Assembly (NCBI GenBank): GCA_030427805.1
Contig: JAUICP010000003.1
Span: forward strand, 195,758 to 259,757
Source: Bdellovibrionia bacterium
Lineage (GTDB): Bacteria; Bdellovibrionota; Bdellovibrionia; Bdellovibrionales; JAGQZY01
Direction: 5' to 3'
Length of the DNA: 64,000 nt
Position 1 is the first letter of the stretch, and every line of letters begins with the position of its first letter. Positions 6,641 to 64,000 of this stretch are shown here, one piece after another. Under the pieces are notes generated by a model. That model was given only the letters and a program-made list of their open reading frames with translations, did no database searches and was not told the DNA's origin. The translations under genes were made by a program, and so were the position numbers.

Positions 6641-6689
6641 GGCTTTGAAAATGGACTTATACACAAAGAGTAATATGCGGTGGTTTGGA

Positions 6690-6735
6690 AAAAAATTGAA
6701 GGGTTTTAATCTCAATTAACAAGATTAAAACCCTT
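6690..6735 (-). terminator. Minus-strand intrinsic terminator
   Basis: Perfect 14-bp inverted repeat with arms at 6699-6712 and 6722-6735 and a 9-base loop. Read on the minus strand, the stem is followed by CAATTTTTTT. It would end transcription coming from the AsmA-like gene at 7081-9351 and separate it from GDPD. Confidence 0.7.
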
Positions 6736-7080
6736 CATGCGCCCCCTTGACTCCCACCACTAGGCGAAGACCTACCGGGTCTGCCAAAAGCAAACTTGAA
6801 TTCCAAATCGAAAATGATTAGCAAGCTCATTTCCCGAACGGAGACTCATTGAACCGGTGGTTACCGAAGAAAAAACCAGTGCTGGTTACTCTCCTCCTGG
6901 ATCATGTTCTGTGAGAAGGTTATAACACATAGCGTTGATATTCCTTCTAGCAAAAGGCCCACCCTGAAAAAGAGACTTGCGACTGAGTCCATTATGGGTT
7001 CAAAAAAACAATACTTAATAATTTCAGGTATTTATAGAGGAAATTTTGGTTCTAAAATGAAACCTCAAGAGTCTAAGGGA
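6736..7080. other. 345-base stretch without a convincing gene
   Basis: Lies between the AsmA-like stop and the minus-strand terminator, so it is probably 3' untranslated sequence of that transcript. The minus strand holds a 43-codon frame beginning MDSVASLFFRVGLLLEG. A second frame overlaps it downstream and ends ELANHFRFGIQVCFWQTR. Neither has a good ribosome-binding site. A decayed gene or a small RNA is possible. Nothing firm can be assigned. Confidence 0.4.
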
Positions 7081-10021: not shown

Positions 10022-11392
10022 ATGAGATTGAACCCGACTAACATTTCAATCATTCGAAGACTGCTTGTCGGGCGAAACAACCGACCCTTGAAATCCATAC
10101 TCAGTCGATTGGCCGCTCCAGACCTGGCCGCTCTCTTTAGCCACCTTAATAATGTTGAAATCAGAAACCTTATCGACGCCTTGATCTCCATCGATCGCTC
10201 CCACGAAGCTCTACTCGACCTTCCCGAGAGTCGCCTCGAGGAACTTCTGGGACGACTCGACGATGCCCAAGTGCAAGCCATCATTGCCCAATGCCCCGAA
10301 AGTGATGGAGCCTTCTTGCTCTCCCTTGTCGACGACCACAGAAAGCACAGCATTCTCGAAAGTTTTTCCCGACAAAAGCGAACCAAACTTGAGCATTACC
10401 TCAACTATCCAGAGGACTCCGCGGGCCGATTGATGATTGAAAAGGTTTTCACCCTTCCCGCCGACCTTCCCGCTGGAGAGGCCATCGATATTTTGCGCAT
10501 GAGATCTCGAGAAGAGAGCATCTACTACATTTATTGCGTGGATAAGGATGATCGGCTGATTGGTGTCGTGTCACTTCGCTCATTGGTCACCGCCGCTCCA
10601 GAAAAACACCTCAGAGAACTGGCACGCAAAGATATTATCTCCGTCACCCCCGAAACTCCTGAGGATGAGGTGGCAAACCTTGTCTCTAAGTACGATTTTA
10701 TCGCATTACCAGTTGTCGACAAAAGCCACCGACTTTTGGGATTGGTGACTGTTGACGATATCGTTGACGTTATTCAGGAACAGGCGACTGCAAAAATTTA
10801 TGCGACAGCAGGTCTTCAAGAGGATGACCGGGTTTACACTCCGAGTGCAAAGAGTTTTAAAAATCGAATCCCTTGGATGTTTTTGAATCTTATTCTTGCC
10901 GCAATCGCCAGTTCCGTTGTTAGTCTTTTTGAACAAACCATGGCGCAATTAATTATTCTTGCCTCGGTAAAAAACATTGTGGCCGCTACAGGCGGCAATA
11001 CAGCAATTCAAACTTTAACGGTAGTCAACCGAGGACTGGCGACTGACGACTTTCAATTCATAACGATTCGCAAAGCTCTTCTCAAAGAAATTTTTGTCGG
11101 TGTGCAAATCGGTATTATTTTAGGCATTACCGCTGGCTCGCTTATTTATCTCTGGAAACAAGATTTACTCGTTGCCATCGTAATTTGTATCTCAATGATA
11201 CTGAATTCGATCGTGGCCACAGGTTTAGGAGCGATCACTCCAATCGTCTTGAAAAAACTAAATTTCGACCCAGCTGTGAGTAGTGGCGTTCTCGTCACAA
11301 TTTGTACTGATATTTTTGGTTTCTTTTCGTTTTTAGGAATCGCCTCCTTAGGCCTGAAGTATCTTCCCCAGATTGTGACGACCAGCCTATGA
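10022..11392 (+). CDS. mgtE: Magnesium transporter MgtE
   Basis: Inner-membrane Mg2+ channel/transporter. An N-terminal helical MgtE_N domain (about residues 20-125) is followed by two CBS domains (about 130-190 and 195-255) that sense cytosolic Mg2+, a connecting helix, and five transmembrane helices from about residue 285. The pore-domain motifs ATGGNTAIQT and FDPAVSSGVLVTICTDIFGF are clearly present. Length (456) matches the family. The ATG is preceded by a weak AGG. It overlaps the next gene by ATGA, so translation is probably coupled. The 123-base leader is too short for an M-box riboswitch, and I see none. Confidence 0.95.
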   Translation: MRLNPTNISIIRRLLVGRNNRPLKSILSRLAAPDLAALFSHLNNVEIRNLIDALISIDRSHEALLDLPESRLEELLGRLDDAQVQAIIAQCPESDGAFLLSLVDDHRKHSILESFSRQKRTKLEHYLNYPEDSAGRLMIEKVFTLPADLPAGEAIDILRMRSREESIYYIYCVDKDDRLIGVVSLRSLVTAAPEKHLRELARKDIISVTPETPEDEVANLVSKYDFIALPVVDKSHRLLGLVTVDDIVDVIQEQATAKIYATAGLQEDDRVYTPSAKSFKNRIPWMFLNLILAAIASSVVSLFEQTMAQLIILASVKNIVAATGGNTAIQTLTVVNRGLATDDFQFITIRKALLKEIFVGVQIGIILGITAGSLIYLWKQDLLVAIVICISMILNSIVATGLGAITPIVLKKLNFDPAVSSGVLVTICTDIFGFFSFLGIASLGLKYLPQIVTTSL

Positions 11393-11718
11393 TCAAGGGA
11401 ACTCTTCAACCGGAAAGTATTCACTACTATGAAAACTTAGATGGCCTAGAGTCATCACTGGTTCTGAACGTCTACAGCCCCCGTCTCTTTCAAATTATTG
11501 TTCGCACAGCTGCCGAGTACGGCCTTACACCAGTGCCCATTATTCAAAGGTGTCAGGTCTCGAGCCAAACCCACTACTACGCCGATTTAAGCATCTATGA
11601 CTACCCCGTTTCGATTGATATGAACCCAAAGACCGGGATCTTTGTCAGTTCACTTTCAAAAACTCTGTTACAGGAATTGACTAAAGTATTTAGACAAAAG
11701 TTGAGGAAGCTTAATTAA
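11389..11718 (+). CDS. Hypothetical protein coupled to mgtE
   Basis: A 109-residue soluble protein whose ATG overlaps the mgtE TGA (ATGA). I recognise no family. The sequence is mixed alpha/beta with a Tyr-rich segment (SSQTHYYADLSIYDYPVSIDMNP) and a basic C-terminal helix. The tight coupling suggests expression with MgtE, but a functional link is not shown. A short perfect inverted repeat (GAAGCTT-AATTA-AAGCTTC, 11706-11724) covers its stop codon. It lacks a T tract, so it is a weak terminator at best. Confidence 0.7.
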   Translation: MIKGTLQPESIHYYENLDGLESSLVLNVYSPRLFQIIVRTAAEYGLTPVPIIQRCQVSSQTHYYADLSIYDYPVSIDMNPKTGIFVSSLSKTLLQELTKVFRQKLRKLN

Positions 11719-49932: not shown

Positions 49933-50105
49933 TGGGCCTCCTATTCAAATTGAGACTAACATGGCCAATTTCGTTTAAACAAGTCATCAGATGGCCCCAG
50001 TTCCGCCTCCCTAATTTTCTCACTTTTGCACGGACTTTCCCCAGTGATTAGGGCAAAATAAAAGGTGCGAAAGTGGTATGTATCTCCCATTTACCTGAGG
50101 AACTT

Positions 50106-50528
50106 ATGCGGATTTTTCTAGTCTTAATTCTTCTCTCTATTTCGAGCATCGCTTCAGCTGGCTCCTTAAAGATCGAAATTATCGACAAAGTTTCCCGAGT
50201 CACGGAATACAAAAATGACAAACGAGTGATCCTTATTTTACTTAAAAAGAACACTCAAGACGTCATCTCTCTTCTCATGAAGCGATTCAGTGAGCGCACC
50301 GACGAAATCGAAGACCGAAAGTTGGTATTTCTCCTGGTGGAATCCCCCGAACTTCAAGAGAAGTTCCGCAAGAAATACCGGGGATTTAAAAACCGTTGGT
50401 ATGGGCTTATTGGTCTCGATGGAAAATTGAAAATGAGCCACAAATACATGTTCACCGCCAAACAGATCTTTAAAAAGGTCGACTCAATGCCCTTGAGGCG
50501 ACAGGAAATCACAGCTCGCAACGATTAA
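50106..50528 (+). CDS. Secreted DUF4174 protein
   Basis: A 140-residue exported protein from the ATG at 50106. A signal peptide (LVLILLSISSIASA) precedes a single domain with the DUF4174 pattern: RVILILLKKNTQD near the start, LVFLLVESPE in the middle, WYGLIGLDGKLKMSHK, and the distinctive C-terminal KKVDSMPLRRQEI. DUF4174 has a thioredoxin-like fold without a catalytic Cys pair and an unknown function. The frame extends to 50073, but that adds residues before the signal peptide. It is monocistronic. Confidence 0.75.
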   Translation: MRIFLVLILLSISSIASAGSLKIEIIDKVSRVTEYKNDKRVILILLKKNTQDVISLLMKRFSERTDEIEDRKLVFLLVESPELQEKFRKKYRGFKNRWYGLIGLDGKLKMSHKYMFTAKQIFKKVDSMPLRRQEITARND

Positions 50529-50588
50529 TGCAGGGCAAAAGATTTAAGACCTATTTTTAAATCATAGAAAATCGACTAGTCTTTTAAT

Positions 50589-51431
50589 GTGGCAAAGCTA
50601 AAAGAGCGCATTCAAGAGATTATTTTTGAGGCCGAAACCCCCGAGGGTAAAGCCTTCGATGTTCTGATCTTGATACTCATTGTTTCCAGTGTTGTGGCCG
50701 TTTGTCTCGAAAGTGTGAGCTCTATTCAAGCCCGCTTTGGTGAAGAACTTCTCATTATCGAGTGGGTCATTACCTTACTCTTCACCATTGAATACTTTCT
50801 TAGAATTTATTCCGTACAAAAACCAAGGCGCTATATTTTTTCATTCTACGGCCTCATCGATTTGTTTTCGATTTTACCAACTTACTTAAGTATCTTTTTA
50901 GTTGGCGCCCAGTCACTTCTAGTCGTTCGCATCTTTAGGCTCCTGCGCATCTTTAGAATATTCAAACTCGGACGCTACGTCGGCGAAGCCCAAACTTTAA
51001 AAATCGCCCTTTTTCGATCTACGAGAAAAATCATTGTCTTTCTCGGTTCAGTTCTCAGTATCGCGGTCTTCATGGGAACTGTGATGTACTTGGTCGAAGG
51101 AGAAGACAATGGCTTTACAAGTATTCCAAAATCCATTTACTGGTCGATTGTGACTCTGACCACCGTTGGCTTTGGAGACATCACTCCCCAAACGGTCCTC
51201 GGGCAAACCATTGCCTCGGCCCTTATGATACTGGGTTATGGAATATTAGCCGTCCCCACGGGAATTGTTTCCGTGGAACTTTCCCAGGCCCATCAAGAGC
51301 AACAAGTAATGACCTTCGTTTGCTATGAGTGTGGCGCTGAAGGCCATCACCTCGAGGCAAAACACTGCTATAATTGTGGTGAAAAATTACTCGAACACTG
51401 CGACCAAGGCCACATCAAATCACCTGAATGA
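50589..51431 (+). CDS. Voltage-gated potassium channel with C-terminal zinc ribbon
   Basis: A 280-residue Kv-type channel with six transmembrane segments. S4 carries the regularly spaced positive charges RIFRLLRIFRIFK (Arg/Lys every third residue). The pore has the selectivity filter TLTTVGFGD near residue 195. The C-terminal tail ends in CYECGAEGHHLEAKHCYNCG, a C-x2-C...C-x2-C zinc-ribbon-like module. Four subunits would form a channel in the inner membrane. The start is GTG without a strong ribosome-binding site. Its stop overlaps the convergent gene by 17 bases. Confidence 0.88.
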   Translation: MAKLKERIQEIIFEAETPEGKAFDVLILILIVSSVVAVCLESVSSIQARFGEELLIIEWVITLLFTIEYFLRIYSVQKPRRYIFSFYGLIDLFSILPTYLSIFLVGAQSLLVVRIFRLLRIFRIFKLGRYVGEAQTLKIALFRSTRKIIVFLGSVLSIAVFMGTVMYLVEGEDNGFTSIPKSIYWSIVTLTTVGFGDITPQTVLGQTIASALMILGYGILAVPTGIVSVELSQAHQEQQVMTFVCYECGAEGHHLEAKHCYNCGEKLLEHCDQGHIKSPE

Positions 51432-51903
51432 TTTCATATTCTAAGGGACCATTTTTTCCGTTGAGTTCGAAGTAATCACCAACTCGAGCCCCAAAAACAT
51501 TTTGCCCCAGAGGAGACTCTGGCGAAAGACTCATAATTTTTTGGGATTTATATTCGATGGACTCCCCTCCCCTTTGCGGAAGGGTAAAATACCATGCTTT
51601 TCGTTCGCCATCGATTTCGATCTGGACGAGCGCCGTTGCTTCAATCGATTTATCTTTAAAATCTTTGACCTCGAGTAACTCAAGAACTCCGACGACCTTG
51701 GCGAGGTCTTGGGCCCTTTTTGCCTGACCGTGGGCCAAGTAAGAAGCTTCAAGTCCACGGGTATCGTATTTATTTTCAGCCTTGGCGTCGTCGGCAATGG
51801 CGTAATTGCGAGCCTCGTCAGCCGAATGCAACATGACGTTCAGTTCATCGCGAAACTTTTCGGTAAATTGTTGGAGTATGGCCTGTTTATCTGCAAAATC
51901 CAC
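51415..51903 (-). CDS. GreB/GreA-related elongation factor-like protein
   Basis: A 162-residue protein. The N-terminal region (SADEARNYAIADDAKAENKYDTRG) forms a helix pair like the coiled coil of Gre factors, followed by the FKBP-like C-terminal domain with SPLGQNVFGARVGDYFE and EYEIIQV, the usual Gre ending. The signature DLSENAEYDAAKE of GreA is replaced by NYAIADDAKAENKYDTRGLEASYLA, a pattern seen in a Gre-like subgroup. It is therefore a Gre-related factor, distinct from the greA at 9416. It lies nine bases downstream of rlmI. Confidence 0.75.
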   Translation of the reverse strand: MDFADKQAILQQFTEKFRDELNVMLHSADEARNYAIADDAKAENKYDTRGLEASYLAHGQAKRAQDLAKVVGVLELLEVKDFKDKSIEATALVQIEIDGERKAWYFTLPQRGGESIEYKSQKIMSLSPESPLGQNVFGARVGDYFELNGKNGPLEYEIIQVI

Positions 51904-51912
51904 TTTTATTCC

Positions 51913-53055
51913 TCAATCTAATACCAAATGGTAGAACTTTAAATACCTCATCTCAGGATGAATATGGCGAAAAGGATGATCACTCCCCTGACCTGAAACC
52001 CGAAGAACTCTACCGGTCCTCCGCGCCTGAGATAGGGATTCGTCGATTATAGCAGAAAAGTCATCAAAATTAATATGAGAAGAACAACTACTTAAGAATA
52101 AATGGCCCTCAGCCGGTAAACACTTAGCAGCCATGGCAAAAATGTCTGTGTATTTCTTTATGGCTTGGGGCTTTGATTTCTCATTGGGAGCCATCGAAGG
52201 CGGGTCCACCATGATCATATCGAATGACTCTTTATTCTCTTTTAGAAAGTCATAGCAGTCCTTGACCACTCCCTTGTGGCAGTCTTTCTCCAAACCATTC
52301 ATTTGCCAATTGAAATGGGCGTTTTCGATCGCATTGGGGGCAATATCCACACTAGTGACTTGCTTGGCACCACCGACACCGGCATAGATCGAAAATCCTC
52401 CGGTGTAACTGAATAGATTTAAAAAGCTCTTACCCTGAGAAAAGCGAGAAAGGTATTGGCGGTTTTCCCTTTGATCGAGAAAAAAACCGGTTTTTTGCCC
52501 CTCTAATACATTGACAGAAAAGGCGACCTGATTTTCTCTAATCGATATCGAATCGCTGAGTTGACCTTTTAAAAAAATCGGTTCCTTGTGGTGTCGGGAC
52601 TTGTTGATGATGCAGGACCAATCAAAGAACTCTTCCAAGTTTTCAACGACTCCTTGAGACAGCCAGAACGTTTCGAGTGGTTCACTATCAAATTGTAAAA
52701 CAGCAACATCTTCGTAGCGATCACAAACCATTCCCGGCAAAGAATCCCCTTCGCCATTAAGTAGGCGATAGGCTGTGGTTTCTGCATTGAAGAGTCTGAG
52801 TGCCAAGGCATTGCGCATCTTCTTGGCGAAAAAGGCTCGGCTGGGTGGAGACTTATCAAGAGATAGAATTCGCAGGGCAAAGTCGTGGTCCTTATCGAAA
52901 AAAGCCCATGCTAAATGAGCTCCCTTCGGGTCCAAGAGCTGAACCATTTCACCAGTCTTTGCGGCGTCAGCTTTCTCAAGGGCTGACCCATAAACCCAGG
53001 GATGTCCCCGGAGGATATTTTTTCGCAAATTTCGTGAAAGTTTTAACTTCTGCAT
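51913..53055 (-). CDS. rlmI: 23S rRNA m5C1962 methyltransferase RlmI-like
   Basis: Class I SAM-dependent RNA methyltransferase of the RlmI/YccW type. An N-terminal PUA-like domain (NLRKNILRGHPWVYGSAL) and a linker precede the Rossmann domain with FSYTGGFSIYAGVGGAKQVTSVD (SAM-binding), the DPPSMAPNEKS motif IV and a final SSCSSHI with the catalytic Cys region. About 380 residues, like E. coli RlmI. The ATG at 53055 is chosen because GGAAAG lies just upstream. The GTG at 53070 only extends it by five residues. It is likely cotranscribed with the downstream Gre-like gene. Confidence 0.9.
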   Translation of the reverse strand: MQKLKLSRNLRKNILRGHPWVYGSALEKADAAKTGEMVQLLDPKGAHLAWAFFDKDHDFALRILSLDKSPPSRAFFAKKMRNALALRLFNAETTAYRLLNGEGDSLPGMVCDRYEDVAVLQFDSEPLETFWLSQGVVENLEEFFDWSCIINKSRHHKEPIFLKGQLSDSISIRENQVAFSVNVLEGQKTGFFLDQRENRQYLSRFSQGKSFLNLFSYTGGFSIYAGVGGAKQVTSVDIAPNAIENAHFNWQMNGLEKDCHKGVVKDCYDFLKENKESFDMIMVDPPSMAPNEKSKPQAIKKYTDIFAMAAKCLPAEGHLFLSSCSSHINFDDFSAIIDESLSQARRTGRVLRVSGQGSDHPFRHIHPEMRYLKFYHLVLD

Positions 53056-53232
53056 TCGACTCTTTCCCACTCAATCGGTCACGAGACCGAGAACCCATGA
53101 GAGTCCTATCACGATGGCCGAGATTAGGCCCGTTTAGGCCTCTCCTTTATAACTATTTCACAGGCCCCTAAAAGCCTACACCTGGGCCTCAGGAGGAGTT
53201 AAGATGCGCTGCATTAAGTATTGGAGATTCAT

Positions 53233-54654
53233 ATGATTTTACTGATCGCTCGCCTTCTTTTTAGCCTCCTTTTGGGCCTCTCCTCACTGGCCACAGCCCA
53301 AGAAGAAATGAGTACCGACCTGGGCCCAGTCTCTGAGCCTGCGGCCCAATTTGTGGACTGGGATAGCCAGCACAATCGCGGAAAAGATAATCATCAGAAC
53401 TTCACGGCTTACCGGCGCGCCATTCCCTATCTCGAAATCACATTGGATCCAAGCCGGATCAATCTTGGTCGGCACTATGTTGATTGGTTTCAAGGAGGCG
53501 ACAAAGGACCCCATTGGTTTTTATTGGACCAGGCGGAGTACCTCCCCGAAGACATCCGCAACTTTATGGTCACCGAAGAAGAAGGTGGAATCAAAAAAGT
53601 AAAGTGGCTTCTGTCCCCACAAGATGAGGATTTTAAGTTTCGCTTAATGACCTACTTTGCCGATCTCGGGTTGGAGTACCGGTACTTCCGCACCGAAGAG
53701 GACGAGGATAAAACCGACCCGCTCTCTGAAGTGAAAGGATTCAACACGGCCTCTCGAAGTGTTATTGTCACACTTCCAAATCCAGAGGGATCTGGTGAGC
53801 GAATTTTTAGCTTTAAAACCGCGACCTCTAATCACATGCAAGATGAATCGATTGATCGACCCTACCCAGTCAACTGGTCTTACTTTAATCGCAGGCTCAG
53901 CGATTACTACTATAGCCAACGCCACAACCTCAAAGTGGCAAAAATTGCTTGGGAAGCCCTTTCTATGGGAGTCAGTCCCGGAGAAAAAAATGGCGATATC
54001 GCCATGTCTGTTCGCTTGATGGAAGAGGTATCAGCTGGAAAGAAATTCCACATGTCTGGATTCGTCCTTCACGACGACATCGAAATGAACAGAATAGCTA
54101 AACTCAATAATATGACTCGCAAAGAACTCAAAGAGAAAATCTCATTTTATTTTGCCCAAGCCATTGTCGAAATGAACTTGGTCCTCGGTTTTAGAATGAC
54201 TTCATCTCACCTGCAAAACATGCGCGTTGAATTTGATGAAAACATGCAACTGACCGGTAAAATTGTATTTCTCGATCTCACCGATGGCTCTCCGGTCCGC
54301 GCTGTCATGGAACGCAATGGGCAACATGAGCTCCTCGAGTACTGGGAGCAATTTGTCGGTCATACCGAACTTGCCAGCGGTAAGAAACCCAACGAAATTA
54401 TCGAGACAACCGATTGGAAGCAGGTCCCCTTCGGCAATAAACACATCGATTGGTTTGTTCCCATGATTTCTGACCCCTATATCCAAGGCGCAAGGCTGCG
54501 TGCCAGAGAACTTGGCTATTCAAAGAATCACCTTAGAATCGACCATGGAACCAAACAAATTCGCTTTCGGTTTCGGTCTGGAGCGAGTCTCAATCAACTG
54601 TTTAGACCTCAAAACACGTGTAGCTTGGGCTTCAGCTCACTGACTGGACTTTAG
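53233..54654 (+). CDS. Large secreted protein of unknown function
   Basis: A 473-residue exported protein from the ATG at 53233 (GGAGA upstream). A signal peptide (LIARLLFSLLLGLSSLATAQ) is followed by about 450 residues of mixed structure with no family I recognise. Notable segments are YRRAIPYLEITLDPSRINLG, the acidic FRTEEDEDKTDP, and a repeated aromatic HYVDWFQGG / HIDWFVPM, where one motif of each half may reflect an internal duplication. No obvious catalytic residues. Predicted periplasmic. Confidence 0.7.
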   Translation: MILLIARLLFSLLLGLSSLATAQEEMSTDLGPVSEPAAQFVDWDSQHNRGKDNHQNFTAYRRAIPYLEITLDPSRINLGRHYVDWFQGGDKGPHWFLLDQAEYLPEDIRNFMVTEEEGGIKKVKWLLSPQDEDFKFRLMTYFADLGLEYRYFRTEEDEDKTDPLSEVKGFNTASRSVIVTLPNPEGSGERIFSFKTATSNHMQDESIDRPYPVNWSYFNRRLSDYYYSQRHNLKVAKIAWEALSMGVSPGEKNGDIAMSVRLMEEVSAGKKFHMSGFVLHDDIEMNRIAKLNNMTRKELKEKISFYFAQAIVEMNLVLGFRMTSSHLQNMRVEFDENMQLTGKIVFLDLTDGSPVRAVMERNGQHELLEYWEQFVGHTELASGKKPNEIIETTDWKQVPFGNKHIDWFVPMISDPYIQGARLRARELGYSKNHLRIDHGTKQIRFRFRSGASLNQLFRPQNTCSLGFSSLTGL

Positions 54655-54754
54655 GCGGCTTTTCGAGCGACTGTGAAGCCTTGTTTCTAGCCAGAAACCC
54701 CATTTAGCTATAAATTTATAGACAGGTCTATCATCGTTCACGGAAGGGCGATCA

Positions 54755-56305
54755 GTGAAATTAGGAAATATTTCGTTTCAAAAGCTATTTTGCATACTCA
54801 TTTTGAGTGCCGGCTTCATTCATCTACCAGCAAATGCGAATGTCATTGGGAGTGATTTTCAAAACTTTAATCCCATTCCAAGTGGTCTCGACTTTGTAAC
54901 CGTTCACTCCTCAGAAACATTGCAGCCAAAGATCTTTAATTTTGGTTTTTACTACAATATCGCCTACAACACCCTTCCCTATTTTGAATCCATCGATGGT
55001 GCATTGATTCGGGACCGCTCGACTTACAGTGACTCCGTTGGTGCCGTCGACTTTAACTTTGGTTATGGAATTATGAAAAACTGGGATGTCGGGCTCAACG
55101 CACCCATGATCGTCAATCAGTCCATCGAATCCGATCAAATCTACGGAAGTTTTTCGCAAAAAGGTCTCTCTGAAATTCGCCTCAACACAAAGTATCGTTT
55201 TGTCGGCGACGACTCCTACGGTATCGCCGGTATTTTTACTATTAACTTTAATCAAATCGAAAATAACATTTATTCAGGTGACGGGGCCGGCCCCATCCTT
55301 AACTTCGAAGTGGCCGCCGATAAAACATATGGGAGCTGGAACCTTGCCGCCAACTTGGGGTATCGCTTGCGCAGTCCCGGCACTCAAATTGACCCGGTCG
55401 TTGTCCCCTATTCCGATTCTATTGTGGCTTCAGTGGCCGCCAGTTTTCTCGTAGCCAAATGGGATACTAAATTTATCTTTGAACTTTTTGGCGGATTCCC
55501 AACTGATTCGGCCGCACCTGACGGGCAATCGAGTTTTGAATCTTTGATCGCAGCTAAACATGACTTCAATTCTAGATTCTCTCTTCTCGGGGGGCTCGGT
55601 ACTGAGCTTGCCGCCGGAACGGCCTCACCAGACTGGCGCTTTTTTACCGGGATCAACTACGCTTTCGGATCTGGGAAATCAACTGAAGTCAAAATGGTGC
55701 GCGAGCGCAAGGAAGATCGCATTTACAAATATGCCGACACCGACGACAACTTAGGTGCCGGCGGTGATGAATTCTCTGACGACATCGATGAAACGATCAA
55801 AGACATCGGCGCAGACCAATATGCAGACTTCGACACTAAGGCAGAAGATCGCCTACTCAACGAGCAGGGCCTCGAACCGATCGCCGATGTGGATGATCCA
55901 TTTGATGAAGTCACTGCTATTGACAAAGTCCTAAAGAATGAGAAGAAACAACGAAAAGTGGTCTTTGTTCTTAAAAACGTAAACTTTAAGCCAGGCTCAT
56001 CGTCTAAAGTTTACGGCCGAGTGAGAACGTACCTCAAAAGACTCAATCAGTATTTACGAAAGCCACCTAAATTCAAGAAGCTAATTATCGTTGGACACAC
56101 AGACTCAATTGGCTCGGCTAAGAAGAACAAGATTCTAAGTATTCGTCGCGCCAAGACGATTCGCAAATACCTCATCAAGGTTCACAAAATTCCAGCCAAT
56201 CGAGTGATCGCACGCGGAAAAGGTGAAAGCCAACCGATCGCCGATAACGGAAACTACCAAGGGCGTAAAGAAAACCGCCGCGTCGAATTCCAAATCTTCA
56301 ATTAG
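54755..56305 (+). CDS. OmpA-family outer-membrane protein
   Basis: A 516-residue protein. GTG at 54755 has GGAAGGG upstream. A signal peptide is followed by an N-terminal beta-barrel-like region of about 300 residues (strands such as FNFGFYYNIAYNTLPYFES and DVGLNAPMIVNQS). The middle is a charged acidic linker (DDNLGAGGDEFSDDIDE). The C-terminal 120 residues are an OmpA peptidoglycan-binding domain, with VNFKPGSSSKVYGRV, IVGHTDSIGSAKKNKILSIRRA and a final GKGESQPIADN...NRRVEF. Links the outer membrane to the cell wall. Its stop lies in a large inverted repeat with a terminator. Confidence 0.9.
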   Translation: MKLGNISFQKLFCILILSAGFIHLPANANVIGSDFQNFNPIPSGLDFVTVHSSETLQPKIFNFGFYYNIAYNTLPYFESIDGALIRDRSTYSDSVGAVDFNFGYGIMKNWDVGLNAPMIVNQSIESDQIYGSFSQKGLSEIRLNTKYRFVGDDSYGIAGIFTINFNQIENNIYSGDGAGPILNFEVAADKTYGSWNLAANLGYRLRSPGTQIDPVVVPYSDSIVASVAASFLVAKWDTKFIFELFGGFPTDSAAPDGQSSFESLIAAKHDFNSRFSLLGGLGTELAAGTASPDWRFFTGINYAFGSGKSTEVKMVRERKEDRIYKYADTDDNLGAGGDEFSDDIDETIKDIGADQYADFDTKAEDRLLNEQGLEPIADVDDPFDEVTAIDKVLKNEKKQRKVVFVLKNVNFKPGSSSKVYGRVRTYLKRLNQYLRKPPKFKKLIIVGHTDSIGSAKKNKILSIRRAKTIRKYLIKVHKIPANRVIARGKGESQPIADNGNYQGRKENRRVEFQIFN

Positions 56306-56416
56306 GTAGAAGCTTCCTTTTGGTAGCGCACTCGCATTAATCAAAACAAAAAAAGCCTTCCATATGGGAAGGCTTTTTTTTACGCGCTGTCGCTACCAAA
56401 AGGAAGCTTCTACCTA
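56303..56416. repeat. 26-bp perfect inverted repeat spanning two stop codons
   Basis: Left arm 56303-56328 and right arm 56391-56416 are perfect complements. The left arm begins with the TAG of the OmpA-type gene, and the right arm ends with the TAG (other strand) of the converging vWA gene. The intrinsic terminator sits between the arms. Confidence 0.92.
56348..56381. terminator. Bidirectional intrinsic terminator
   Basis: Stem GCCTTCC / GGAAGGC flanked by seven A on the left and eight T on the right, so it can end transcription in both directions between the two converging genes. Confidence 0.9.
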
Positions 56417-57808
56417 GGGGTTGTCGCACTCGTAGTTGATAATGACACGGGTTCCGCCAGGGATTGGAGGTACGAATGAAATTTCGTTGCCATTCACCGT
56501 GTAGTTGATACCCGCTACATTTGGTATTGTCATCACTGTGATATTCTTCGGATCACAGGTGAGATCCACTTTTGAAAGCTGATTCAGAATATTGTTCTGG
56601 AAGAACTTCAAGTTTTGCCGATAATCGTTGGCACAAATGTCTCCCACATATCCACCGGTAAGACGAGATAACTCGTCGTACTTGGTTCCAAAGAAACTTG
56701 GCACTCCTTGATTGTCTTGATTCGTTTCACACACCGTATCTCCGGGGCGAACAATAATTGAATTCACAATCAATCGCTTGGCAGCGGTGTTACTTGAAAA
56801 GGTATTTTGTACCACTTCAATAAATTCAGTCGGCATATTCTTCGGCCCAAGAGGCTGATACTGAGCACTACTGCGAGAACGTACACCACCCACACTGCGC
56901 TCATCCTCATCACTGAGAATAATGACCACAAGGGCGGCACTATCGCGCATACACTTAGAGATCGTATTGTCTTCAACTGCTAGGTAGGCTGCTTTAATAC
57001 CCTGCTCATCGTTACTAAAGCCCGCACCAATTTTAGTAATGGTATCTCGAAAAACCGCATCGCGATTGCCATCAGCTTTTTTAAGGATGTGGTTGTTTAA
57101 CCCCTCCCAAATAATGGCTCGGCCCTGATAGAAATCAATATCAGTCGTCGTAATACACATTTGCCAGTCAATATTAGCGCCGTCGAGATCACCCACAAAG
57201 CCACCGAGGCGATTTGCAATCTTCATTTGCTCAGGCTCCATCGAAGCCGAATCATCCAGAATCAATAAAATGTCGACGTCGGCGTTACCATCTGGAATAT
57301 CTTGAATGTAGGTATAAGCAGTAGTCGCCGTACAACTTCTCGATGTTTCTGGAGGAGTTTGCGTACAATTAGACTCGTCAACTTCTGTGGAGGTTTGCGT
57401 ATCATAGCATGCGATGGTTCGTGTTTGCGTTCCGCCCGTACATGTCCCCCAGGCACCTGGGACCCAAACATATCTGAGACTATCACAAGAGTGGACATTA
57501 CAAACTCGCTGCTCGGCAGGGCGATCGGCCGAAGAACATCGACTCTCATCAACCCGATTGCCCGAAGCATCTTCACAGTAAACTTCTCGAGTTTGTGTTC
57601 CGCCATCACATTCAGCGGAACATTCGCCCCACTCAATGTCAAAATTCCACTTAACGCTAAAACCAGTATTGTTACAGTTGGAACCGGTACAGTCATTGGC
57701 CATTCGATCAAATCGGGCCTTTGCGCAGTTTTGGGTAATTAAAGTTCCCACTGCGAGAGATATCATAAACGCTGTAGCCACATAGAGGCTAAAATTCTTT
57801 TTGTTCAT
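56414..57808 (-). CDS. Secreted thrombospondin-type-1 and vWA domain protein
   Basis: A 464-residue exported protein. The ATG at 57808 is taken as the start; GTG at 57811 is equally in frame. A signal segment ending TLITQNC may be lipidated, though its lipobox is unusual (Asn before Cys, as also in the giant protease). Two TSP1 repeats follow: WGECSAECDGGTQTREVYCE, with partner Cys in QRVCNVHSC, then WGTCTGGTQTRTIACYD. A von Willebrand A domain begins at DILLILDDSASM (DxSxS MIDAS motif), with Thr/Asp MIDAS partners further on (IILSDEDERS). Adhesion or protein-complex role is inferred. It follows the 59296 gene by 21 bases. Confidence 0.82.
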   Translation of the reverse strand: MNKKNFSLYVATAFMISLAVGTLITQNCAKARFDRMANDCTGSNCNNTGFSVKWNFDIEWGECSAECDGGTQTREVYCEDASGNRVDESRCSSADRPAEQRVCNVHSCDSLRYVWVPGAWGTCTGGTQTRTIACYDTQTSTEVDESNCTQTPPETSRSCTATTAYTYIQDIPDGNADVDILLILDDSASMEPEQMKIANRLGGFVGDLDGANIDWQMCITTTDIDFYQGRAIIWEGLNNHILKKADGNRDAVFRDTITKIGAGFSNDEQGIKAAYLAVEDNTISKCMRDSAALVVIILSDEDERSVGGVRSRSSAQYQPLGPKNMPTEFIEVVQNTFSSNTAAKRLIVNSIIVRPGDTVCETNQDNQGVPSFFGTKYDELSRLTGGYVGDICANDYRQNLKFFQNNILNQLSKVDLTCDPKNITVMTIPNVAGINYTVNGNEISFVPPIPGGTRVIINYECDNP

Positions 57809-57829
57809 CACTTTAACTCTCTCTTGCTA

Positions 57830-59296
57830 TTAAATATCTACTGGAGAGGCTGGTCTGACACCAGGTCTTCCACTACTACCAGTTCCACGCATCATCGCGC
57901 CAATATCATCGGTCGACCAACCGGCATAGGCCGCTTGTCTGACTCTGAGGGTTCCCGTTCCAGCCCAGCGCTCCGTCTCGGGCTCACCTGGCTTACCAAT
58001 AGGGGTATCCGTTGGTGTTGGAGTTGGGTCCTCACCGCCTCTATTCTTATTGCGATTTCGCATGATAAGAATCAAGGCAAGGGCCGCAACACCGATTCCC
58101 ACAGGGATTAACCAATTTCTATTTTCTCGCATCCAGTTACCGGCACGTTCGCCAAAACCAGGTCCCTCTTCGGCCGCTGGAGTGATCGTGTTTGGACCTG
58201 AATCAATATCAGCAATAATGTCTTCTTGAATGGCAACGAATTGGCCGTGGCGTCTTCTGAGGACTTCACAAGCCTCTTCCTGATCCGCGCGATTGCTCGC
58301 AGGAGGATTCGCACAGGCTCGAATGGCCGACTCAATAGCCGCATTAAGCGCGTTCACACTTTGCTGATTATAAGTTTGCCCATTACTTTCAATGACCGCT
58401 CTCACGTTTCCAGGAGAGGTCAATGGGTTTTGCTGATCACAAGAGCTTGAAGCATTATTATCGGCTCGCACACAGTAGTTTCCGCCACTCGTGCGTCCAA
58501 AGATTACTGGATTACATAGGATCCCTCGCTCACCCTGGTATTGACACCCATTAGAACCGGGAATCGAACAGCTGCCATTCACATATTGCGAAGTCCAACC
58601 GGCGTTCACACAGGGATTGCCATCATATTCACTCGCATAGGCTTTCTCACCAAAAAGCAGCATAAAAAGTGCGTTTAAATCTTTGTACTTGTTTACGGCA
58701 GCATTTCGAGCTTTCTCATTAGCCTTTTGAACGGCATCCATGGCCATTACTACTTTTCTTAAGTGATAGGTATAAAGTGCTCTTTCGCCTTTATTGAGTT
58801 TCTTGACAACAGATGCTGGGAAAAGTCTTTTTGCGGGGTTGACGCCGAGAGCTTTCATCATGGCACCGCGACCGGCGTCGTGAAGCATATCTTTATTTGT
58901 AATTTCGTGGCCATTGACCCGGGCGTAAACCTTGGGGCCAAAAACCATTTCCATCGAAACGTATTTTTTATTGTGGGTAAAACTAATCTTGTAAGTATCC
59001 TGTCCGTTCGGAAGCTTCACTCGATCCACTTGGTACTTTGGAAGTTTCTTGAGCGGAAGAAACTTAAAGAACTTCTTCGCCCCTTGGTGATACTCAACTT
59101 GCTGTTTTTCTAAAAAGAAATTCAACATTTTCTTTTTAGAGATCTCTTGCTTGTTGATAGGTAACTCTTTTAGGAGTTGTCTAACGAAAACCGGTCCGTC
59201 TTGTGAAAAGTCTGCTTTGGACTTCGCTGCTACTGCCAATCCTGGTGTATAGGCCATAGCAAATGAAAGAAGGATACATATAATTTTGTTGCTCAT
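57830..59296 (-). CDS. Secreted protein with C-terminal membrane anchor
   Basis: A 488-residue exported protein. A signal peptide (ILLSFAMAYTPGLAVAA) is followed by a Lys-rich helical region (about 25-200), a short hydrophobic block ending LLFGEKAYAS, and a Cys-rich region (about 225-310, with CVNAGW, CSIPGSNGC and CDQQN). A C-terminal transmembrane helix (LIPVGIGVAALALILIM) is followed by a Gly/Pro/Thr-rich tail. A related order of features (helical region, a strand ending in HEIT or KAFTY, then xxAxA and a Cys) is seen in the gene at 62132. No enzymatic motif is seen. It is operonic with the TSP1/vWA gene. Confidence 0.7.
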   Translation of the reverse strand: MSNKIICILLSFAMAYTPGLAVAAKSKADFSQDGPVFVRQLLKELPINKQEISKKKMLNFFLEKQQVEYHQGAKKFFKFLPLKKLPKYQVDRVKLPNGQDTYKISFTHNKKYVSMEMVFGPKVYARVNGHEITNKDMLHDAGRGAMMKALGVNPAKRLFPASVVKKLNKGERALYTYHLRKVVMAMDAVQKANEKARNAAVNKYKDLNALFMLLFGEKAYASEYDGNPCVNAGWTSQYVNGSCSIPGSNGCQYQGERGILCNPVIFGRTSGGNYCVRADNNASSSCDQQNPLTSPGNVRAVIESNGQTYNQQSVNALNAAIESAIRACANPPASNRADQEEACEVLRRRHGQFVAIQEDIIADIDSGPNTITPAAEEGPGFGERAGNWMRENRNWLIPVGIGVAALALILIMRNRNKNRGGEDPTPTPTDTPIGKPGEPETERWAGTGTLRVRQAAYAGWSTDDIGAMMRGTGSSGRPGVRPASPVDI

Positions 59297-59428
59297 AAGA
59301 TTGTCCCTATTTAAAAAACCTCTGTGTTCCCTACCACCGTCTCATTTTTTATCGGCTTTGATCTGGATTAAATTGAGTACATTTTAAAAAATAACTTGCA
59401 AAAAGCCTATTTTTTAGTCTAGGGAGTG

Positions 59429-59441
59429 TCTCAAAATGAGA
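59429..59441. promoter_or_regulatory. Palindrome TCTCAAAATGAGA
   Basis: 5-3-5 perfect palindrome, 133 bases upstream of the 57830-59296 gene. A similar core occurs at 25944-25956 and at 63745-63773. An operator is inferred. Confidence 0.45.
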
Positions 59442-59482
59442 TTAAGTTTGAGATATGAAACGAGCTTTCATATTTAATACGA

Positions 59483-61513
59483 CTAAAGGCCCCACTTGTT
59501 TTTTAAATAGGATTCGATCTTCGTAATATCAGCAGGACTTAATGCGGAATCAAAGATGAGAATTTCACCAATAAAACCCGTCATACGATTGTTGCCGGTA
59601 CTATCGTCACCCAAATAGTAGTTACCTGTTCCAGTAAAATCGGTATTGAAGTGGGTCGCATTATTGTAGATTTGCGTGTTTGTGTTTTCAGTAACCGTGG
59701 CAAATGCGCCGGAGTTTTCAATGCGCCAAATACTAAAACTCCCCTTGGTCAAAGCGGGACTGTAAAAAGTATTCGCCGCATATCTGCGATCGATAAAGAA
59801 AGCTCGCGCCCCGCCGGGTCCAATGAACTCGAACATACACTTGTCGGTGAGCCCGTTATCGTATTGCCCTACGATTATAATTGTGAGGTCCGTACCATTA
59901 TTTCGCGTGAAGGTTCCCTGTAAACCGCGATCGAGGTCGACAAAGCGAACCGCTGGCAAACCATTTTGCACGTCGTGCTGGTAAACCGGTTGCTTGGCAG
60001 GGTCCGCCTCGGTCGCCGATTGAGCCGAAGCCGTTTTATCAACCCATGTGCTGACAAGACTCCCATCCGTTGGAACCGAACCGTCACCGAGTATATCTGT
60101 TGAATCGAGCCAAGCAATGGGCGAAAAACCCATAATATCAAAAATTTCTTCCGTATCGATATCAGAGTAAGGACCAAGGGCTCCGTTACTTGCGGCCACA
60201 CGAATCTCATAGGTCACATTAGCAGTGAGACCCGTGAGGGTCGCTGAATTCAAACTTGGATTGGGGCTCAGGTTGGACCAAAGGGATTGCCCTTGCTCTC
60301 GATACTGAACCACATAGTGAGTAATCGCCTGACCATTATCAGCCGGGATGGCCCAACTTAAATTCAATGCGGTATTATTAGTACTCGGAGCTGAAACCAG
60401 ATTCATAACTTTATCTGGTGGCGGAGAAGACGTGTCTACCATCACCGAGGCTAGGCTTCCAAACTCAGCACTCACATCTAACAGGGCGGGATTAGAACTC
60501 ACTGCCCCTTCGATACTGCCACCATTGAGCTCCAAAGTACCACCAGTTGATATTCCATCGAGATCCGCATCACCAGCTTGCACCACATACTGAAATGCCA
60601 AGTGTTGTGACCCTGTCCCCGAAACATAGTTTGCATAGCGAGTGCTACCGCCAACATCCAATGGAAGCCTCGGCACACCCGAGACATTCATCGCTTCATC
60701 CCAAGACATGGTGAACTCAATAACACCGTCAATTCCGTAAGTTCCATTTACGGGCATGAGAATAGAGCTCACAGGCAAGTAAACGACCGACTCTCGCGTC
60801 CAACGGAAATCACTATTTACCGATTGATTGCCAGCAAGGTCGACCTGATAAACTTCAAAGTCGTAGTCACCATCAGACGACTTCACTTCACTGGTAAAAT
60901 TAAATCCCCCAGAAGAGCAGTTTTGCGAAACTACCGCCAGAGAATCTAAATCGCGCATAAAAACTTCAGCACCCTCTTCGCAATCGCCAGAAAGACTGAC
61001 TTGATTGAGCCCCGTACTATGGGGCTGCCCCGGACTTGTAATATTGGGAGCATCGGGAGCTTGCCGATCCAGAATCCACTCAAGACTTGTCGTCGCAGTT
61101 TGACTGAACTCATTTACAGCAATCACTTCAAAGAGGTAATTTCCATCAGAGGGAGCCGTCATCGAAAAACTATAGGCAGAACCCTGGCATTGGGTTTCAA
61201 AAGAAAAACCACCACCAGAAATTTGAATTCTTTGGCCGCTTTCACAGCTTCCAGAAAGATTGAGCTGTGGGTCATTCGTGATATAGGGCGACTCATGACT
61301 TGTAATCTCAGGCACACTTGGGATCGGAAGTTCCGAAGGAACATCTTCAGAGTCGGCTTCATTATTGGGCTGACCACTACAGGAAACGAGCAAAGTCCCC
61401 AGGGCCAATAGAACAAAGAGAAAAGCCAGAGAACCGACTTTCTGTCGAGGCTCTTCTCGAAGTATGTTTGAATGCTTGGGTTGATCCCCGTAAACGTTCC
61501 ATTTCACCAGCAT
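59483..61513 (-). CDS. Lipoprotein with Ig-like, FN3 and LamG-like modules
   Basis: A 676-residue lipoprotein. The ATG at 61513 has GGAGAG six bases upstream, giving a long N-terminal region before the lipobox LVSC (Cys near residue 46). Two Ig-like repeats follow (each with LNLSGSCESG or VSLSGDCEEG), then a Calx-beta-like region (FTMSWDEAMNVSG). An FN3 domain comes next (APSTNNTALNLSWAIPADNGQAITHYVVQYREQG). The C-terminal about 200 residues resemble a concanavalin/LamG-like lectin fold (WVDKTASAQSATEADPAKQP ... IGEILIFDSALS). Probably an adhesin or glycan binder at the cell surface. Confidence 0.75.
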   Translation of the reverse strand: MLVKWNVYGDQPKHSNILREEPRQKVGSLAFLFVLLALGTLLVSCSGQPNNEADSEDVPSELPIPSVPEITSHESPYITNDPQLNLSGSCESGQRIQISGGGFSFETQCQGSAYSFSMTAPSDGNYLFEVIAVNEFSQTATTSLEWILDRQAPDAPNITSPGQPHSTGLNQVSLSGDCEEGAEVFMRDLDSLAVVSQNCSSGGFNFTSEVKSSDGDYDFEVYQVDLAGNQSVNSDFRWTRESVVYLPVSSILMPVNGTYGIDGVIEFTMSWDEAMNVSGVPRLPLDVGGSTRYANYVSGTGSQHLAFQYVVQAGDADLDGISTGGTLELNGGSIEGAVSSNPALLDVSAEFGSLASVMVDTSSPPPDKVMNLVSAPSTNNTALNLSWAIPADNGQAITHYVVQYREQGQSLWSNLSPNPSLNSATLTGLTANVTYEIRVAASNGALGPYSDIDTEEIFDIMGFSPIAWLDSTDILGDGSVPTDGSLVSTWVDKTASAQSATEADPAKQPVYQHDVQNGLPAVRFVDLDRGLQGTFTRNNGTDLTIIIVGQYDNGLTDKCMFEFIGPGGARAFFIDRRYAANTFYSPALTKGSFSIWRIENSGAFATVTENTNTQIYNNATHFNTDFTGTGNYYLGDDSTGNNRMTGFIGEILIFDSALSPADITKIESYLKNKWGL

Positions 61514-61639
61514 CTCTACTCTCCATTATAGGATAAAATGCTGAAAAAAGGCGCAAAGATAGCTTCACATTTGCTCGCCAAATTGAGATCTAGGCCGACG
61601 ATCGTATTGAATTAAGACAAAACTCTATCAAGAAGAGAC

Positions 61640-62080
61640 CTACCAGCTCCCCGAATTTTCCATTGAGAGCCAGGGCTCAGCCGGTTCCAGGGACTCCCCT
61701 TTTTGTAAGAGTTCAATGGATATTCCATCCGGAGATTTTATAAAAGCCATGTAGCCATCTCGAGGGGGTCGCAAAATAGTTACGCCCTTTTCTTGCAAAG
61801 CAGAACAGGTCTCGTAAATATTCTCGACTCGGTAGGCGAGATGACCAAAGTTTCTGCCTCCAGAGTATTCATTCTCGTCCCAATTGTAAGTGAGTTCTAC
61901 CAGAGGAGACTTGAACTCCTTCGCCTTCTCATGGTCACCGGGAGCGGCAAGAAACACCAGAGTAAAGCGGCCTTTTTCGTTGTCATAACGCCTGGTTTCG
62001 ACAAGTCCTAGCTTATTGCAAAAAAAATCGAGGGATTCTTCAAGGTTCGAAACTCGAAGCATTGTGTGCAAATATTCCAT
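61640..62080 (-). CDS. gloA: Lactoylglutathione lyase (glyoxalase I)
   Basis: Converts the methylglyoxal-glutathione hemithioacetal to S-lactoylglutathione. VOC-superfamily metal enzyme of 146 residues. The four metal ligands are His5 (YLHTMLRV), Glu near 63 (VELTYNW), His near 80 (FGHLAYRV) and Glu near 126 (SIELLQ). Other family marks are [11 protein letters not shown] and the [12 protein letters not shown] end. Its partner GloB is at 15618-16385. It lies 51 bases downstream of the 62132-63682 gene on the same strand. Confidence 0.95.
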
Positions 62081-62131
62081 AAGGTCCTCCTAAACTCAGA
62101 AGACCCTAGCGAAGAATAATTGAAATGTAAA

Positions 62132-63682
62132 TTAGGTTTCGTCGGGCGTGATTCCGTTGGCTTCCTGGCGAGCACGCTCAAAGTCCCCTGTTCTTTCAGC
62201 CTCAAAATTAGCTTCTCGCACCAGACGCTCAAGCGCCCTTGTGACACAAGCTGCTGGATTCTGCAGATAGGGATTGATTATATCGTCACGCTCTTCTTGG
62301 GGAAGGTCCGTTATGGGAATAATATCCATCGTCGCTTCCGCAAAGTCGTAATCAGATAGACTCGTACCGGCTGGAACACGTGCAAAGACTTCACACTCAC
62401 CAGGTTCGGGCTCTACCAAAATGAGATGTTCACCACTTTCTAATTGAATAGGCCTTGCCCTCTGTTCGTTGGCAGCAAATATCTCGCGCTCTTCGCGATT
62501 ACAACTTCTTGTGGGAAAAGTTCTTTCATAAACCCGCAGACTTTCGCTATTTTCACTGATTTCTGTTCGAAAGAGTTCAAGATTGGCTCCATTGACATAA
62601 TTCGAAGCATCAGCAACTGCTGTTAAGTCGACCTGGTATTGGCTATTAATCAAGTTGGTGATTGTCGGTCTTATTCGCATATTCGGAGGGGCTCCGACAA
62701 AGTATTCCGTCGGCATTTGTGCATCGTGGGCCGTTAAACCCTCAGCATTTTTTTGTTCGTTGATAATTCTTTCGGCAATCCTTCGACAAACACCTAGGGG
62801 ACCAGTGACGTGATTTGCGATTTCAAGGATTTTAAGCCCCTCTTCGTCGTGACCAATACAGAAGGGCATGCCCTCCCAGTATTCTTCGCCCTCGAGCTGA
62901 AACTCGAGAAGCTCTCTATCGCGTCCGATGTCGAAAAGAGGTTCTTCGGGCATCCAATTCGTCGACATTTCGTTGGTTGCCACATCAGAGACCAAGCCGT
63001 CAAAAGCTTGATTCACTTCTCCGTAGTTTGTACAGGTCCTATTGTAAAAATAAGCACCAGCACCACCACCCACGATTAAAGCGCCGACAATCCAAACAGC
63101 GATCGGTATCGCCGCATGGGCCTCATTAAAAAATACATCAAATAGGGAAGCATTTTTTGCCGAAAGGAGATTTCGCATTTTAATAAGATTGGCTTCAAAC
63201 CCCGATTCGGGAACATAGGTAAAAGCCTTGCCATTTATAAAAAAGTCACTGCCCGGGTTCGAGTAATTAAGGGCAATCTTCAGCTGATCCGATCCCGACT
63301 GAATCAAAAAACCAAGGCTAAGTTCTTTGATATTGACTTTCTTTGCTCCCGCTTGGGGATTGGATTTTAAAACGCGCTCTAGCTCCGCTCGCAGTTTTTT
63401 ATAGGGGCCCGTTCGCAAGAGCGTACTCTTTCTAAAAAAGCGTGACAGAGTCTTGTGCTCCTTTAACTCTTGCACAAGGGACTTCATCCGCTTCATACCT
63501 TGCGAGGCACGGTGAACTCGACTGATCGCCCTCTTCCGCAGAGCTGTTCTCTTTTCTTTTGAAAGGGATGCTACAGATGGTTTCGTTGTGTTCTTCTTAG
63601 TACTCGCCAATAGAATGGGTTGATTCGTCAATAAGAATACGAATGCAATACATAAAGACAATAGCCTCATAGTCCTCTTCAC
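62132..63682 (-). CDS. Large secreted protein, unknown function
   Basis: A 516-residue exported protein. GTG at 63682 has AGGGG seven bases upstream; an ATG 12 bases further in is an alternative. The signal peptide (LCIAFVFLLTNQPILLAS) is followed by a strongly basic helical region (about 30-125), a strand ending in INGKAFTYVPESG, FFNEAHAAI, a transmembrane segment (IAVWIVGALIVGGGAGAYFY) and an acidic Cys-containing C-terminal half (CIGHDEEGL, CRRIAE, CEVFARV). The order of features resembles the 57830-59296 gene, suggesting a paralogue family. No known motif. Confidence 0.7.
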   Translation of the reverse strand: MKRTMRLLSLCIAFVFLLTNQPILLASTKKNTTKPSVASLSKEKRTALRKRAISRVHRASQGMKRMKSLVQELKEHKTLSRFFRKSTLLRTGPYKKLRAELERVLKSNPQAGAKKVNIKELSLGFLIQSGSDQLKIALNYSNPGSDFFINGKAFTYVPESGFEANLIKMRNLLSAKNASLFDVFFNEAHAAIPIAVWIVGALIVGGGAGAYFYNRTCTNYGEVNQAFDGLVSDVATNEMSTNWMPEEPLFDIGRDRELLEFQLEGEEYWEGMPFCIGHDEEGLKILEIANHVTGPLGVCRRIAERIINEQKNAEGLTAHDAQMPTEYFVGAPPNMRIRPTITNLINSQYQVDLTAVADASNYVNGANLELFRTEISENSESLRVYERTFPTRSCNREEREIFAANEQRARPIQLESGEHLILVEPEPGECEVFARVPAGTSLSDYDFAEATMDIIPITDLPQEERDDIINPYLQNPAACVTRALERLVREANFEAERTGDFERARQEANGITPDET

Positions 63683-63744
63683 CTCGCTACCCCTATCATA
63701 TCGGATAGAAGGCCAGTGTTTATAAATGAATCAGAATCTGACGA

Positions 63745-63773
63745 TAAAATCGTATCAAAATGATACGATTTTA
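63745..63773. promoter_or_regulatory. 13-bp-arm palindrome upstream of the 62132-63682 gene
   Basis: Arms TAAAATCGTATCA and TGATACGATTTTA (63745-63757 and 63761-63773) with a 3-base AAA spacer are perfectly complementary. It contains TCAAAATGA, as does 59429-59441. The right arm covers the stop codon of the next gene, so terminator function is an alternative, although the T tract is short. Confidence 0.5.
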
Positions 63774-64000
63774 GGGTTTTTCAATAAGATCGATACTCTT
63801 CTGAGCTGCATCGCGAACTGAATAGTGGCTTTTATCGGTTGCGAGCTTCTTTAGCTCTGGGAGTGCTTTTTTAGCCAAGGGCCCGATTTGTCCGAGCATG
63901 CGAATCGCAACCAGTTGGTTTCTCGATTTATTAATATGCTTCAAAAGTTCCGGCACCAATCGCGCTCCCATCCTCTCGGCAAGCTCCTCATAACTAAATC
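63771..64000 (-). CDS. HEAT-repeat protein fragment (C terminus)
   Basis: The frame enters from the right edge of the window and ends at TAA on the minus strand at 63771-63773, giving about 75 residues. Repeats resemble HEAT/PBS-lyase HEAT-like motifs: VPELLKHINKSRNQLVAIRMLGQIG and ALPELKKLATDKSHYSVRDAAQKSIDLI. The N terminus is outside the window. HEAT repeats mediate protein-protein contacts. A specific role is not inferable. Confidence 0.65.
   Translation of the reverse strand, partial: FSYEELAERMGARLVPELLKHINKSRNQLVAIRMLGQIGPLAKKALPELKKLATDKSHYSVRDAAQKSIDLIEKP

Follow-up and report, generated by a model that had tools for sequence, protein, structure and literature searches.

Does a bacterium carry, on a single polypeptide chain, both of the parts with which malaria and Toxoplasma parasites grip and invade cells, the thrombospondin type 1 (TSP1) repeat and the MIDAS head? 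The question is raised by one gene in a 64 000-nucleotide stretch of DNA, here called the window, from a Bdellovibrionia bacterium, a group that includes the predator Bdellovibrio. A sequence-only reading had placed TSP1 repeats and a vWA domain with a MIDAS between positions 56414 and 57808, and that observation is confirmed. The open reading frame lies on the reverse strand at 56414..57811 and comprises 465 codons from a GTG, or 464 from the ATG at 57808. Because the GTG is immediately 5′ to this ATG, 57808 is the likelier start, as the earlier reading had it. Comparison with a congener (G001, a metagenome-assembled genome, MAG) reveals 80 synonymous and 6 nonsynonymous differences, giving dN/dS = 0.018. 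The selection is strongly purifying, and thus the gene is real and constrained.

The TSP1 repeats are identified by the profile PF19030 (TSP1_ADAMTS), which matches the protein in two stretches with 64.8 bits (E = 8e-18) against a cut-off of 23.8. When the whole 4.5 Mb genome is scanned each repeat exceeds the cut-off alone, repeat 1 (57485..57643, reverse strand) with 55.6 bits and repeat 2 (57326..57466, reverse strand) with 32.1 bits, and these are the only two PF19030 places in that genome. A chance match of a cysteine-rich stretch was considered, and is ruled out by the E-value, by the restriction to two genomic places and by the constraint on the gene. Repeat 1 keeps all six cysteines (64, 68, 79, 92, 104 and 109). 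Repeat 2 is degenerate, with four (124, 135, 149 and 160) and neither C2 nor C6. In classic TSP1 repeats C2 is paired with C6, so that repeat 2 loses one whole disulfide bond. The TSP1 assignment therefore stands by profile for both repeats, while the cysteine pattern is complete only in the first. All six cysteine columns are kept in 31 of 34 aligned repeats from 12 proteins, and the other two exceptions are L110, which lacks column 3, and the fourth repeat of L130, which lacks column 2.

The VWA domain with its MIDAS occupies approximately residues 178–416 (56564..57280, reverse strand). The search with the Pfam VWA profile fell short, at 16.9 bits against a cut-off of 23.8, whereas the NCBIfam model NF052240 (Bdellovibrio MIDAS family adhesin) matches with 121.7 bits (E = 4e-35). 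It is this match, together with the predicted fold, that upholds the vWA domain proposed earlier. The DxSxS motif then noted is loop 1 of the MIDAS, D186-D-S188-A-S190 (57242..57256), with the loop-2 glutamate E269 at 57005..57007 and the loop-3 aspartate D301, in SDEDERS, at 56909..56911, all on the reverse strand. D186, S188, S190, E269 and D301 are each invariant in 58/58 rows of the family alignment, from which the MIDAS appears to be intact. Residue 194, eight after the MIDAS Asp, is Glu or Asp in 57 of the 58 rows. In integrin beta-I domains the loop-2 ligand is a Glu, as at the E269 position of the MIDAS family, and residue 194 corresponds to what we take to be the position where beta-I domains carry the ADMIDAS acid. 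The cysteines are more variable in their conservation, with C361 and C393 present in 58/58 rows, C419 and C462 in 54 each, and C219 and C287 in 39 each.

The AlphaFold2 model made from the 58-row alignment has a mean pLDDT of 87.3 and a pTM of 0.66, with most blocks of the VWA above 90, and in it the VWA part is predicted to adopt the VWA fold. A small beta-rich domain is modelled around it. Its first strand or strands fall at approximately residues 161–177 (57281..57331, reverse strand; a strand at 163–171 in the model, the alignment with integrin beta starting at 161), and the model and the same alignment place its C-terminal half, containing Cys419 and Cys462, at residues 417–465 (56417..56563, reverse strand). 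The protein ends at residue 465 in the modelled beta strand 455–463. In a Foldseek search rows 1–48 are all integrin beta chains, followed at row 49 by PitA, a pilus adhesin. By VIA-align the VWA superimposes on the integrin alpha-I domain 1aox_A with Z = 14.6 (194 residues, rmsd 3.5), and the C-terminal region starting at residue 157 or 161 on the beta chain 6om1_F with Z = 15.0 (245 residues, rmsd 6.9); Z differences below 1 are ties, and these two scores are thus equal. Over residues 161–465 the integrin beta chains align for some 230–250 residues (rmsd 6–9), adding about 50 beyond the VWA, which fits a VWA inserted in a beta-rich domain. The predicted head is therefore a VWA within a beta-rich domain, matched best in Foldseek by integrin beta headpieces.

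How far does the likeness to integrin beta go? The headpiece (hybrid plus beta-I) has in common with it a VWA predicted to be inserted in a beta domain, the loop-2 Glu and the acidic residue at MIDAS Asp+8. Unlike integrin beta, the window protein shows no sign of PSI, EGF or transmembrane segments, and the rmsd of 6–9 is that over two domains. In a profile search of solved structures with the 58 rows no integrin beta chain was significant by sequence; the best VWA-type match was mussel PTMP1 (E = 0.0015), and an integrin beta-3/alpha-L chimera and MIC2 had E = 0.013 and 1.9, respectively. VIA-align listed no TSP1 structure, and the TSP1 part of the model was barely probed by the fold search. 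By sequence, the nearest solved structure to the TSP1 part is the TSP1 of human THSD7A (E = 2.5e-5).

The family to which the head belongs contains proteins that have been studied in the laboratory. On its sequence the VWA part is assigned to the Bdellovibrio MIDAS-adhesin family of Bd0875 and Bd1483, with which it shares the lipobox, the VWA in a beta-rich domain built from both flanks, and the conserved acidic residues. In the excerpts of Tyson et al. (2024, PMC11003981) the VWA of Bd0875 and Bd1483 is set in a small beta-rich domain, as it is in our model, and Bd0875 is placed by experiment at the predator–prey junction as a surface lipoprotein. It is needed for full invasion of prey and its MIDAS Asp is required, empty bdelloplasts amounting to 9.3% with the deletion and 7.5% with D66A. 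Among the four B. bacteriovorus MIDAS proteins studied there, the invasion defect is reported for Bd0875 alone, and the uncapped relative Bd1483 is described as having no invasion phenotype (PMC11003981, same excerpts). The resemblance to adhesive proteins proposed from the sequence is thereby strengthened, since the TSP1 repeats and MIDAS are real and the nearest studied relative is, in that account, an experimentally established surface adhesin.

The window protein is nevertheless not an orthologue of Bd0875. Its NF052240 score of 121.7 bits does not reach the equivalog cut-off of 700, and it matches the model in two partial stretches, positions 27–141 and 178–377. The unmatched positions 142–177 are the site of the Bd0875 cap (amino acids 143–176), and so the protein is of the uncapped type. 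A better candidate for the orthologue is another gene, on contig C1, which matches with 224 bits over positions 10–377. Unlike both Bd0875 and Bd1483, the window protein has two TSP1 repeats between the anchor and the head.

The anchor itself is encoded at 57725..57808 (reverse strand), where a signal peptide leads to a putative lipidation site at Cys29, followed by an AKARF segment. The lipobox is non-canonical, with TQN at −3 to −1; a lipid anchor at Cys29 is supported by the invariance of the cysteine in 58/58 rows. Right behind it there is a C-x-x-V-x-F pattern in this protein (57710–57727) and in the related MIDAS lipoproteins, with V in 49/58 and F34 in 57/58 rows, and a similar C-x-x-x-x-F is seen in some unrelated TSP1 lipoproteins (L102 and L108). 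Among the loci compared, with lipoproteins predicted by regular expression, F is found at Cys+5 in 55 of 62 VWA-family lipoproteins vs 5 of 50 others. A sample of the window's own genome, comprising the window and a further 400 kb, has 26 lipoproteins predicted among 400 ORFs; three of them carry it, of which one is the window protein and two are doubtful predictions. The phenylalanine may characterize the family or contribute to a candidate surface-sorting signal, and shared descent alone could also account for it.

What might such a protein do? Our preferred reading, to which we give a probability of about 0.68, is that it is a lipid-anchored, surface-exposed, metal-dependent adhesin with a disulfide-braced TSP1 stalk, acting much like Bd0875 and convergent with TRAP and MIC2. 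The lipidated Cys29 would fix the protein in the outer membrane so that it points outward, and the two disulfide-braced TSP1 repeats would form a short stalk, possibly responsive to force, that sets the head off the surface. The metal bound by the MIDAS would then engage an acidic group presented by a ligand of the partner cell. The working mode is likened to that of Bd0875, and to that of TRAP and MIC2 with the opposite direction of the chain. In relatives the stretch from anchor to head is a short linker or PKD/Ig-like domains (the PKD matches being below cut-off), and such replacement of TSP1 fits the role of a stalk. A part in predation is a further step, against which stands the lack of the cap that marks Bd0875, the sole MIDAS protein with an invasion defect in the excerpts of Tyson et al.

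The adhesin might instead bind surfaces, polysaccharide or kin, in biofilm or in gliding, and not prey. The excerpts of a 2026 review (PMC13104615) provide a precedent in CglB, a VWA surface protein that anchors gliding in Myxococcus. CglB and CglD resemble the window protein as VWA surface proteins of a gliding predator, and differ from it in that no TSP1 repeats are noted for them in those excerpts. The CglD model NF033765 gave weak matches in 6 of 8 proteins scanned (16.5–35.3 bits, cut-off 400) and no match on the window protein. The gene also adjoins an OmpA-family gene, outside any recognized predation cluster. With the best studied relative acting at the prey junction, and predators included in the lineage, we regard a target other than prey as rather unlikely.

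The immediate surroundings of the gene show some further features. A co-oriented gene of 488 amino acids (57830..59296, reverse strand) without a Pfam match lies 18 bp ahead of the adhesin gene, and is a possible operon partner; among the loci compared it is found only in the window's genome (G000) and in G001. Downstream, two convergent genes have a shared terminator (56305..56414) that is framed by inverted 23-bp copies at 56305–56327 (forward) and 56392–56414 (reverse). These copies sit at the stop codons of the two genes and are kept in G001, and the element folds at −71 kcal/mol (z = −12.9). The 23-bp sequence looks like a REP-type repeat, with 43 copies in the genome at ≤3 mismatches vs none for a reversed control, some paired and others single. 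Rfam and tRNA scans of 50000–64000 found nothing.

In other genomes a different neighbour bears on function. A small conserved gene, coding for a one-helix protein of one family, lies within 500 bases downstream, on the same strand, in 5 of the 11 TSP1-VWA ORFs of the named loci that have enough downstream DNA (two of the five positives sharing one genome, and the second L121 copy being included in the 11) vs 0/66 VWA-only ORFs, and G259 provides a sixth such locus. The ancestral copy of this gene belongs to a conserved lipoprotein cluster at another site; matches occur in 80 of 368 genomes, and seven regions were inspected (L223, 5848–6309 on the reverse strand, and L224–L229), where the one-helix GspG-like protein is accompanied by TPR and other lipoproteins. 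A gene beside it there encodes a product that holds KVKIIKRYQNRKLYDTQQ, presumably PhaR-like. In G045 and G230 the linked copy coexists with the ancestral one, suggesting a dedicated duplicate. Downstream of three of the fusion genes (L114, L117 and L118) there is also a conserved DUF475/TerC neighbour, which we set aside; these loci are syntenic on both flanks, and the pairing may mean nothing more.

Such a linked gene would be expected if the protein acted in surface sensing or envelope assembly, the head binding a partner in the cell's own envelope (e.g. the one-helix GspG-like membrane protein), with TSP1 serving as a spacer. The lack of an invasion phenotype for the uncapped Bd1483, in the excerpts of PMC11003981, points the same way. 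Yet the window's copy has no one-helix gene behind it, and in its genome the gene is present solely as the ancestral copy, which lies on a different contig. Nor is the partner securely identified, its resemblance to GspG being weak at 13.7–19.8 bits (cut-off 21) and a GspG-like fold finding no confirmation in a model with pLDDT 67 and a best Foldseek E of 1.1. We therefore consider an envelope role improbable, and return to the cell-surface adhesin as the preferred reading.

How general is the TSP1-VWA architecture? The phylum was scanned with TSP1_ADAMTS, which matches in 49 of 368 genomes, 45 of them over the cut-off, and in none of 14 control genomes. These counts, from one phylum and the controls, bear in part on the proposal that TSP1 is uncommon in bacteria. 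TSP1-VWA lipoproteins with one, two or four repeats are found in at least 12 of the 368 genomes (G000, G001, G007, G018, G022, G034, G045, G049, G075, G230 with two genes, G257 and G259), a lower bound because the 40 regions inspected, nearly all around TSP1 places, cover a subset of those places. A scan of named genomes returned 79 loci, of which 10 were TSP1-VWA, all in Bdellovibrionota MAGs. On one contig of a MAG (L121) two TSP1-VWA copies of equal length (5977–7290 and 10243–11556, forward strand) lie 4.3 kb apart; they have arisen either by recent duplication or through faulty assembly. The VWA relatives are far more widespread, being present in 59/59 genomes searched (the window's own and 58 relatives), and the window's genome has 12 NF052240 matches, counted as nine ORFs.

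In a tree of 65 VWA domains, built from the best 64 scorers and L110 after removal of 10 named rows that were partial, distant or duplicated, 11 TSP1 rows group with weak support (80/61). Next to them is a clade of 26 rows, all TSP1-free, with proteins of B. bacteriovorus among them. The twelfth TSP1 row, G075, is on a very long branch and placed elsewhere, so that on this tree two changes are needed for the TSP1-VWA architecture.

TSP1 is found in other architectures in the phylum. It is C-terminal in pilin-like proteins at L067 (1261–2844, reverse), L093 (2566–4044, forward), L106 (3503–5125, forward) and L071 (1483–2589, reverse), which have GFSLIE-type N-termini, with Pfam N_methyl over cut-off only in L106; these sequences suggest TSP1-tipped pili in Bdellovibrionota. 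Among L099, L102, L079 and L090 there are PKD-TSP1 proteins of ~900–1360 amino acids, one DUF4832/glycoside-hydrolase-like protein that has a TSP1 at its C-terminal side, and one cytochrome-c-like protein with three TSP1 repeats. Acquisition of the whole TSP1-VWA unit from a eukaryote through horizontal transfer, which would make it a true relative of TRAP, would agree with an animal TSP1 being best among solved structures, but is most improbable given a VWA nested in a large Bdellovibrionota family, the opposite domain order, the occurrence of TSP1 in several unrelated Bdellovibrionota proteins, and apicomplexan I domains that are alpha-I-like in the excerpts of PMC7351488 where the MIDAS family has an invariant loop-2 Glu.

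The comparison with Plasmodium TRAP and Toxoplasma MIC2 is instructive all the same. Both combine a MIDAS I/VWA domain with one or more TSP1 repeats on one chain, and the physical order of membrane, TSP1 stalk and MIDAS tip is the same. The chain is reversed, however, the TSP1 repeats of the window protein coming before the VWA, and its predicted lipid anchor is N-terminal where theirs is a C-terminal transmembrane segment with a cytoplasmic tail. Its MIDAS is beta-I-like, whereas the I domains of Apicomplexa are nearer to alpha-I than to beta-I in the excerpts of PMC7351488, and there is no evidence of common origin for the unit. The likeness is thus best read as convergence. We suggest tentatively, at rather less than even odds, that Bdellovibrionota have independently built a TRAP-like receptor for invasion or traction, comprising a lipid anchor, an adjustable TSP1 stalk, an integrin-beta-type MIDAS head and, in some lineages, a one-helix GspG-like partner.

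If that is true, two groups that enter cells by pulling, the bacterial predators and the apicomplexan parasites, have arrived by convergence at one pair of modules for adhesion under force. Tyson et al. invoked the apicomplexan machinery by analogy and for the MIDAS part only, naming TRAP and MIC2; the word thrombospondin does not appear in their paper (PMC11003981). Among the papers listed in searches of an open-licence library we found none tying TSP1 to Bdellovibrio and no bacterial TSP1-VWA protein. The excerpts of the 2026 review (PMC13104615) name the adhesins and force-transmitting components of Bdellovibrio-type gliding as a major open challenge. A conserved family with a MIDAS head and a TSP1 stalk provides concrete candidates, and with it convergence on the invasion machinery of the Apicomplexa can be tested cleanly.
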